Positions 34,199 through 35,359 of a DNA stretch of 64,000 bases are shown here, one piece after another. The stretch is taken from assembly GCF_006265095.1 (NCBI RefSeq), contig NZ_VCNK01000004.1:124001-188000 (forward strand). The letters run 5' to 3'. A program made the translations under genes and the position numbers. Under the pieces are notes generated by a model that worked only from the letters and a program-made list of their open reading frames with translations, was not told the DNA's origin and did not search any database. Source of the DNA: Phaeobacter sp. B1627 (GTDB lineage: Bacteria > Pseudomonadota > Alphaproteobacteria > Rhodobacterales > Rhodobacteraceae). Each line of letters opens with the position of its first letter. Positions within the stretch are counted from its first letter, which is position 1.

Positions 34199-35359
34199 CT
34201 ACCCTCCCGCCGCTGTGGCGATCAGCGCATGGGTATCCATCGCGATCTGACGTTCTTCTTCTGCCGCCACGATCCAGGCCGGGACAGCGGCCGTATCCCG
34301 GGTGATGCGGGGCGCGTTTTCCGCGTTGCGCGCTGCATCCGGTGTTGCTCCCAACCAGTCAAAGCCATTGAGGATGCGCGCCCGCACCAAGCGGGAATGC
34401 TCGCCGATGCCGCCGGTGAATGCGATCGCATCCAGCCCGCCGAGGGCGCCGATCAGGCTGTGGCCATGGCGGATGGCCCAGTAGCAGAAATGATCGATGG
34501 CAAACTGTGTCTCGGGGGTGTCCGTCTGCTCAAGCCTGCGCATGTCGGAAATCCCGCCGGAGAGGCCCGCAAGGCCGGAGTGGCTGTTCAAAAGGGTCTT
34601 GCTGCGCGAAAGCCCCAGTTCTTCCACCAGCCGAAGCGCCGCATTGGCATCGAGACTGCCGACACGGGTGCCCATGGTCAGCCCCTCAAGCGGCGAATAG
34701 CCCATGGTGGTGGCAACGGACCGGCCCTCCCGGATCGCGCAGATCGACGCGCCATTGCCCAGATGGAAGGCCAACAGCCGGTCGGGCAGAGGCCGTTGTG
34801 AAATATCCGGCAAGCGACGGCACAGGGCGGCATAGGACAGCCCGTGAAAGCCGTAGCGGCGCAGACCCAGCGCCTCGGCTTCGGGCGGCAGCGCATAGCG
34901 GCGGGCCACCTCCGGCGCATCCGCATGAAACGCTGTGTCGAAGCTCGCATATTGCGGCAGGTCGGGCGCGAGTTGCGCCAGTGCGTCAATGGCCGACAGG
35001 GCGTGGGGATTGTGGAGCGGCGCCAGCGGCACGCAGGCCTCGATCTTGGCGCGGACCGTCGCGGTCAGGGCGGTGGGGGCCGTCAGCTCCGTCCCACCAT
35101 GCACCACCCGATGCGCCACCGCCACAAGCTGATCCGGTCCGGATCCCTGGTCGGCCAGTCGGGACAGGACAGCTGCAAGCGCCTGTTCATGGTCCGGCAG
35201 GTCGAGGCTCTCGCTGCTGGCGCCGACCCGCAGCGCCCCGCCGCTGCCGATACCCTCGGCAACACCGCTGAGGCGGGGGTGGAGCTGCGCGTCGAATACG
35301 GCGAATTTGACCGATGATGACCCGGTGTTCAGCACCAATGTATCGCGACCGGCGCTCAC
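34199..35359 (-). CDS. ackA: Acetate kinase
   Basis: Converts acetyl phosphate and ADP to acetate and ATP. ASKHA-fold enzyme of 386 residues from the GTG at 35359 (VSAGRDTLVLNTGSSSVKFA), whose start overlaps the TSUP stop as GTGA. Family motifs: AHRVVHGGTEL, ASFDTAFHADAPEVARRYALP, RRYGFHGLSY, LAFHLGNGASICAI, MGTRVGSLD and IAFTGGIGEHS. In sulfonate degradation Xsc makes acetyl phosphate; many clusters place pta next to xsc to feed acetyl-CoA, whereas here the neighbour gives ATP and acetate. A longer frame to 35467 would overlap the exporter gene and is rejected. Confidence 0.94.
   Translation of the reverse strand: MSAGRDTLVLNTGSSSVKFAVFDAQLHPRLSGVAEGIGSGGALRVGASSESLDLPDHEQALAAVLSRLADQGSGPDQLVAVAHRVVHGGTELTAPTALTATVRAKIEACVPLAPLHNPHALSAIDALAQLAPDLPQYASFDTAFHADAPEVARRYALPPEAEALGLRRYGFHGLSYAALCRRLPDISQRPLPDRLLAFHLGNGASICAIREGRSVATTMGYSPLEGLTMGTRVGSLDANAALRLVEELGLSRSKTLLNSHSGLAGLSGGISDMRRLEQTDTPETQFAIDHFCYWAIRHGHSLIGALGGLDAIAFTGGIGEHSRLVRARILNGFDWLGATPDAARNAENAPRITRDTAAVPAWIVAAEEERQIAMDTHALIATAAGG

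Follow-up and report, generated by a model that had tools for sequence, protein, structure and literature searches.

A probable taurine dissimilation cluster of the acetate kinase type, with a TauR-type operator, in Phaeobacter sp. B1627

We describe here a gene cluster of Phaeobacter sp. B1627 that can be assigned, with high confidence and with the AckA step included, to the known "acetate kinase" type of taurine dissimilation cluster, here with a TauR-type operator. It lies in a 64,000-nucleotide stretch of DNA, called the window below, and positions are those of the window. The acetyl phosphate that Xsc makes likely finds its built-in sink in AckA, whose gene takes the place that pta has in other clusters. 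How the acetate is divided between reuse and release is less sure than the cluster type and the AckA step.

The minus strand carries xsc, encoding sulfoacetaldehyde acetyltransferase (592 amino acids [aa]; 36129-37907; TIGR03457, 911 bits, cut-off 676), a tauE/safE-family sulfite exporter gene (35356-36132; PF01925, 55.5 bits, cut-off 32.6), and ackA, encoding acetate kinase (34199-35359; TIGR00016, 297.5 bits, cut-off 293.4). An earlier note on this DNA had placed and named ackA rightly, as its 386-aa product passes TIGR00016. The same note had let ackA overlap xsc; that arrangement was rejected, since tauE stands between the two and overlaps both. The xsc stop codon and the tauE ATG meet in ATGA, and the tauE stop codon and the ackA GTG meet in GTGA, so that ackA is the third gene in a chain with two 4-base overlaps. 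The longest ackA open frame opens upstream, at 35467, and the start is predicted to be the GTG at 35359 on the basis of the overlap and homology. In transcription order, the minus strand reads as follows: a MocR-type regulator gene, xsc, the TauE/SafE gene, ackA, a YeiH/TauZ-type exporter gene, and three molybdopterin oxidoreductase complex genes. Co-transcription of xsc, tauE, and ackA is predicted from gene order and overlaps. In a promoter and terminator scan of 33900-36200, no promoter-like site came up; terminator-like sites numbered three, with 1.2 expected, and the minus strand behind ackA had none of them.

A TauR-type direct repeat, CTGGTCCTAC-N12-CTGGCCCTAA (37993-38024, minus strand), is placed 117 bases ahead of xsc. 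It agrees with 17 of the 18 fixed TauR operator positions, a score that none of 300 mononucleotide shuffles reached; here and in the other operator tests, shuffling preserved base make-up only. The consensus, of the CTGGACYTAA type, was taken from passages of PMC5320631. The strict pair occurs once in the whole genome, at xsc. Pairs matching at least 14 of 18 positions were found in 72 of 80 xsc upstream regions (79 named loci and the window, one named locus being left out because its sequence was too short) versus 13 of 800 shuffled regions, and the spacing is 23 bases in 64 of those 72. Another, weaker repeat of this type, TTGGCCTCAA-N13-CTGGACCTAT (15/18; 0/300 shuffles as good), lies 134 bases before a class III aminotransferase gene (42225-43622, minus strand; PF00202, 307 bits). 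None of the best 25 of this protein's 68 NCBIfam matches is over its cut-off; we take it for the likely taurine-pyruvate aminotransferase (Tpa). Before the genes for the YeiH-type exporter, SoeA, the regulator, a TauA-like protein, and acetyl-CoA synthetase (Acs), searched on their own strand, the best pairs match 10 to 11 of 18 positions and are equaled by 219 to 299 of 300 shuffles. The best taurine uptake candidate, on another contig, scores 152 bits against a cut-off of 304. A TauABC-like transporter at G000:C24 (L139:4458-7662) is below cut-offs, with no TauR-type pair on its own strand better than those of shuffles.

The MocR-type regulator gene (38217-39779, minus strand) encodes a GntR domain and an aminotransferase domain (PF00392 and PF00155), and its true start is probably an ATG near 39683. 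Its product passes the NCBIfam PdxR model (332 bits, cut-off 320), and we call it TauR from its position and the operator; the PdxR match is a naming trap for annotation pipelines. Of the 80 named loci, 64 have a homologue in this position, among them 23 of the 30 AckA loci. A single TauR-type box with one mismatch lies on the other strand just before the ATG near 39683 (39698-39707), and the regulator might control itself through it. An ArsR-type regulator-like protein, recognized by eye, and an ArsP-type permease gene (PF03773) are encoded between this regulator and the likely tpa (39815-41237). Adjoining the likely tpa, at 43957-47416, are sugar-nucleotide genes for mannose-1-phosphate guanylyltransferase, a protein of the epimerase/dehydratase type, and UDP-glucose dehydrogenase, the frame of the last matching its model from the start to position 235 of 388 and so looking cut short.

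Acetate kinases of solved structure, 2iir and 1g99 among them, align with AckA over its residues 7 to 382. Inspection of the alignment with 1g99 by eye finds the catalytic-residue motifs LNTGSSS, HRVVHGG, LHNP, FDTAFH, YGFHG, GTRVGS, and EEER kept, which we take to carry the catalytic Asn, Arg, His, Asp, His, Arg, and Glu, respectively. TIGR00016 is a subfamily model that covers both acetate and propionate kinases, and the equivalog models matched by AckA are all below their cut-offs. In comparisons with three relatives, dN/dS is 0.16 to 0.19 for ackA, 0.10 to 0.13 for tauE, and 0.045 to 0.095 for xsc, values which indicate that purifying selection keeps all three genes and xsc most strongly.

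Downstream of ackA on the same strand are the genes for a YeiH/TauZ-type putative sulfate exporter (32944-34017; PF03601, 217 bits, cut-off 24.5; TIGR00698, 136 bits, below the cut-off of 232.6), a SoeA-type molybdopterin oxidoreductase subunit (30096-32918; PF00384, PF04879, and PF01568; NCBIfam matches all below cut-off), a SoeB-type iron-sulfur subunit named by position (29237-30013; best 25 of 46 NCBIfam matches all below cut-offs), and a SoeC-type DmsC membrane anchor subunit (28347-29282; PF04976, 45 bits, cut-off 22.3; no NCBIfam match). We assume the SoeA, SoeB, and SoeC names for these three, which from their context we take to be a Soe-type sulfite dehydrogenase.

The earlier note had xsc coupled to ackA instead of pta, and this holds: no pta lies beside xsc, and the three PTA_PTB matches of the genome, which is estimated to be 99.9% complete, are all on contigs other than that of xsc. 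Two are malic enzyme-PTA fusions and one is a MaoC-PTA fusion, so that reading any of them as an ordinary Pta was rejected. A genome-wide TIGR00651 search found no stand-alone Pta over the cut-off of 311.2, the best match (165.7 bits) being a malic enzyme fusion. The distant pta that the note had proposed to look for is thus present as fusions only, and no pta coregulated by TauR was found. The MaoC-PTA fusion scores 476 bits with PRK11890, phosphate acetyltransferase (cut-off 413), and 763 bits with PRK08190 (cut-off 282), and its gene is followed by the second ackA of the genome; judged from these scores, it could convert acetyl phosphate directly to acetyl-CoA. Acs is present (1,010 bits, cut-off 725), encoded by a gene unlinked to the xsc cluster, so that acetate from AckA can return to acetyl-CoA.

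The frequency of this arrangement was surveyed across the family with 150 genomes, each from a different genus. Sequences of xsc over the cut-off were found in 95 of them, giving 101 genes (all those over the cut-off; G053, G065, and G128, with xsc in fragments, were left out). For ackA, 109 rows were used, five short low-scoring rows being left out and genome G026 with them. For pta, the 55 rows were those with at least 192.7 bits; matches of 186.4 bits or less, nearly all in frames at least about 750 aa long, like those of malic enzyme fusions, were left out, and the pta matches listed reach down to 158.7 bits, with PTB-like genes outside them. Within 6 kb downstream of xsc on the same strand, ackA follows 37 of the 101 xsc genes and pta follows 20, and no xsc gene has both, against 7.3 expected under independence (P = 2.9e-5, shared ancestry ignored). 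With 37 cases among 101, ackA at xsc is not unusual in the family. A convergent, lower-scoring Pta-like gene accompanies 30 xsc genes, 16 of them with ackA, and a further 30 have neither ackA, same-strand pta, nor a convergent Pta-like gene. Where ackA accompanies xsc (37 genomes), a Pta match of at least 192.7 bits is absent from 20, the present genome included; in four of these 20 (G009, G045, G108, and G119), a PTB-like gene lies beside ackA.

The 80 named loci, the best 80 of at least 591 confirmed candidates and leaning to close relatives, give a similar division downstream of xsc: AckA in 30, same-strand Pta in 19, and both in none. The order xsc-tauE-ackA is found in 7 of the 80. At eight of the 30 AckA loci, a gene for a PTB-like phosphate acyltransferase stands between xsc and ackA (L011, L038, L041, L049, L065, L069, L078, and L081), and eight others have a convergent Pta, so that some phosphotransacylase gene is near ackA in 16 of the 30; the present cluster has none. 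The PTB-like protein of L038, the one scanned, looks like the PTA portion of MaoC-PTA and is over no model's cut-off, and L079 and L083 have a PTB-like gene without ackA. Fifteen named loci with enough downstream sequence show no ackA, Pta, or PTB-like gene; on a plasmid of Ruegeria sp. THAF33, as annotated in an incomplete gene table, xsc has no ackA or pta within 12 kb. In 17 of the 80 named loci (L008, L015, L016, L017, L018, L021, L024, L027, L043, L045, L048, L055, L060, L063, L067, L076, and L084), a short convergent Pta-like gene downstream of xsc and a gene of the citrate synthase II type are arranged head to head. The junctions of L008 and L084 were read, and the predicted start codons of the two genes are 33 bases apart. 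Between the two genes, on both strands of all 17 loci, no TauR-type pair reached 15 of 18 matches, the best having 13.

The descent of AckA was followed in a tree of 74 rows, comprising 20 of the 37 xsc-linked survey rows and 20 of the 72 other rows (both our own selection), the two AckAs of this genome, one in each group, and all 30 AckAs from the named loci; two genes are each represented twice (as the window and L005, and as L003 and L004). One clade, with support of 100/99, holds 49 of the 52 xsc-linked rows, and the long-branch unlinked rows L099 and L100 join these 49 under a midpoint root. All 15 MaoC-PTA-linked AckAs fall outside this clade in a group of 23 rows (100/97), which also takes in five more unlinked rows as well as the last three of the xsc-linked ones, L026, L029, and L037. 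The second AckA of this genome, encoded beside MaoC-PTA, is outside the main clade. As read from the tree, most xsc-linked AckAs represent a single acetate kinase dedicated to the taurine cluster. The AckAs of L026, L029, and L037 group together (100/100), and these loci lack both an upstream MocR homologue and a TauR-type pair (11/18 in each); they apparently represent a second, independent recruitment of ackA behind xsc, from the MaoC-PTA-linked group.

Linkage of xsc and ackA is already known, and the present case belongs to a published variant, one which relatives commonly have. Roseovarius, presumably of the same bacterial group as the present organism, provides one precedent. The title of Baldock et al. 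2007 (PMID 17425660), as cited in PMC10356861, names acetate kinase and acetate-CoA ligase in Roseovarius sp. 217; compared by this title, that strain likewise dissimilates taurine aerobically through acetate kinase. Passages of PMC5320631 (Suvorova and Rodionov, 2016) list ackA among alphaproteobacterial TauR regulon genes, state that acetyl phosphate is converted to acetyl-CoA via Pta or via AckA and acetate-CoA ligase, and state that AckA and Pta never occur in one TauR regulon, an exclusion with which our survey agrees. The Rhodobacterales TauR regulons in those passages, with ackA, tauE, tauZ, and bisC/hybA/dmsC, have the same operator type and gene set as the present cluster; it is suggested there that BisC/HybA/DmsC take electrons from TauXY, whereas we read the three genes here as a Soe-type sulfite dehydrogenase. 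On these two sources, any novelty of the xsc-ackA linkage was rejected. In the open-licence full texts, supplements excepted, we did not meet a frequency in a sample of this size, the main AckA clade with the second recruitment, or a transacylase gene near ackA at 16 of 30 loci, and the supplementary regulon tables of PMC5320631 may already contain parts of these counts. Plasmid pB of Cereibacter (Rhodobacter) sphaeroides 2.4.1, with the order xsc-sulfate exporter-pta, likewise has an exporter and an acetyl phosphate enzyme after xsc, but pta takes the place of ackA and no tauE is annotated beside xsc. Taurinivorans muris shares the AckA step after Xsc: text of PMC10507020 describes a Tpa-Ald-Xsc-AckA pathway in which acetyl phosphate from Xsc yields acetate and ATP, but in anaerobic taurine respiration and in a member of the Desulfovibrionaceae. 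The anaerobe Desulfonispora thiosulfatigenes is described, in the part of the literature consulted, as fermenting taurine to acetate.

In the pathway that we propose, taurine would be deaminated to sulfoacetaldehyde, probably by the class III aminotransferase, and Xsc, as is known of its family, would cleave sulfoacetaldehyde to sulfite and acetyl phosphate. From its family and position, AckA would then convert acetyl phosphate and ADP to acetate and ATP. The acetate would mainly be turned into acetyl-CoA by the unlinked Acs, for which the Roseovarius sp. 217 title is a precedent, and some might overflow. The Soe-type complex would oxidize sulfite, or TauE would export it, and the presumed exit for sulfate is the YeiH/TauZ-type exporter. 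The earlier note suggested that taurine carbon partly supplies energy and that acetate is released. This is not supported, since acetate can return to acetyl-CoA through Acs and MaoC-PTA could also give acetyl-CoA; the gene content makes acetate release during taurine use possible.

Three other accounts of the kinase were weighed against this pathway. In one, AckA would serve mainly for energy, acetate being excreted and ATP kept as in taurine fermenters, and taurine would be a source of energy and nitrogen rather than carbon. By pathway arithmetic, making acetyl-CoA through AckA and Acs takes roughly one extra ATP equivalent per molecule compared with Pta when all the carbon is assimilated, so that AckA would pay best if acetate leaves and would be worthwhile mainly if some acetate leaves or spare capacity matters. 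T. muris and D. thiosulfatigenes offer precedents for acetate as a product, both being anaerobes. Against this account stand the full Acs of the genome and the 2007 Roseovarius title, which names acetate-CoA ligase as well as acetate kinase; we judge the account unlikely though worth keeping in mind.

A still less probable account gives the main flux from acetyl phosphate to acetyl-CoA to MaoC-PTA or one of the malic enzyme-PTA fusions and leaves the xsc-linked AckA to buffer acetyl phosphate. The scores of MaoC-PTA over both PRK cut-offs speak for it; the neighboring ackA that MaoC-PTA has of its own, outside the main xsc-linked clade, speaks against it, as does the fact that the PTA domains of malic enzymes are usually regulatory. 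A different acyl phosphate as substrate, propionyl phosphate for instance, with the kinase standing behind xsc only incidentally, would fit the breadth of TIGR00016 and the below-cut-off equivalog matches, but the gathering of 49 of 52 xsc-linked rows in one clade and the alternation of ackA with pta behind xsc make this very improbable.

What looked like a plausible surprise is thus settled as a published variant, now with frequencies of 37/101 for ackA, 20/101 for same-strand pta, and 0 for both. A wider speculation, to which we give little credence at present, starts from a TauR-controlled AckA of other descent than the cell's second AckA and from a genome with no stand-alone Pta. Acetate would then be an obligatory branch point: under nitrogen use, the two carbons of taurine would leave as acetate, with ATP gained, and feed neighbors in the sea, to be reimported via Acs when carbon is short, and in some relatives a PTB-like transacylase or the convergent Pta beside the citrate synthase gene would restore a direct path to acetyl-CoA. 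Leakage of acetate during growth on taurine, if true, would be one more way in which marine roseobacters provide food for other microbes.
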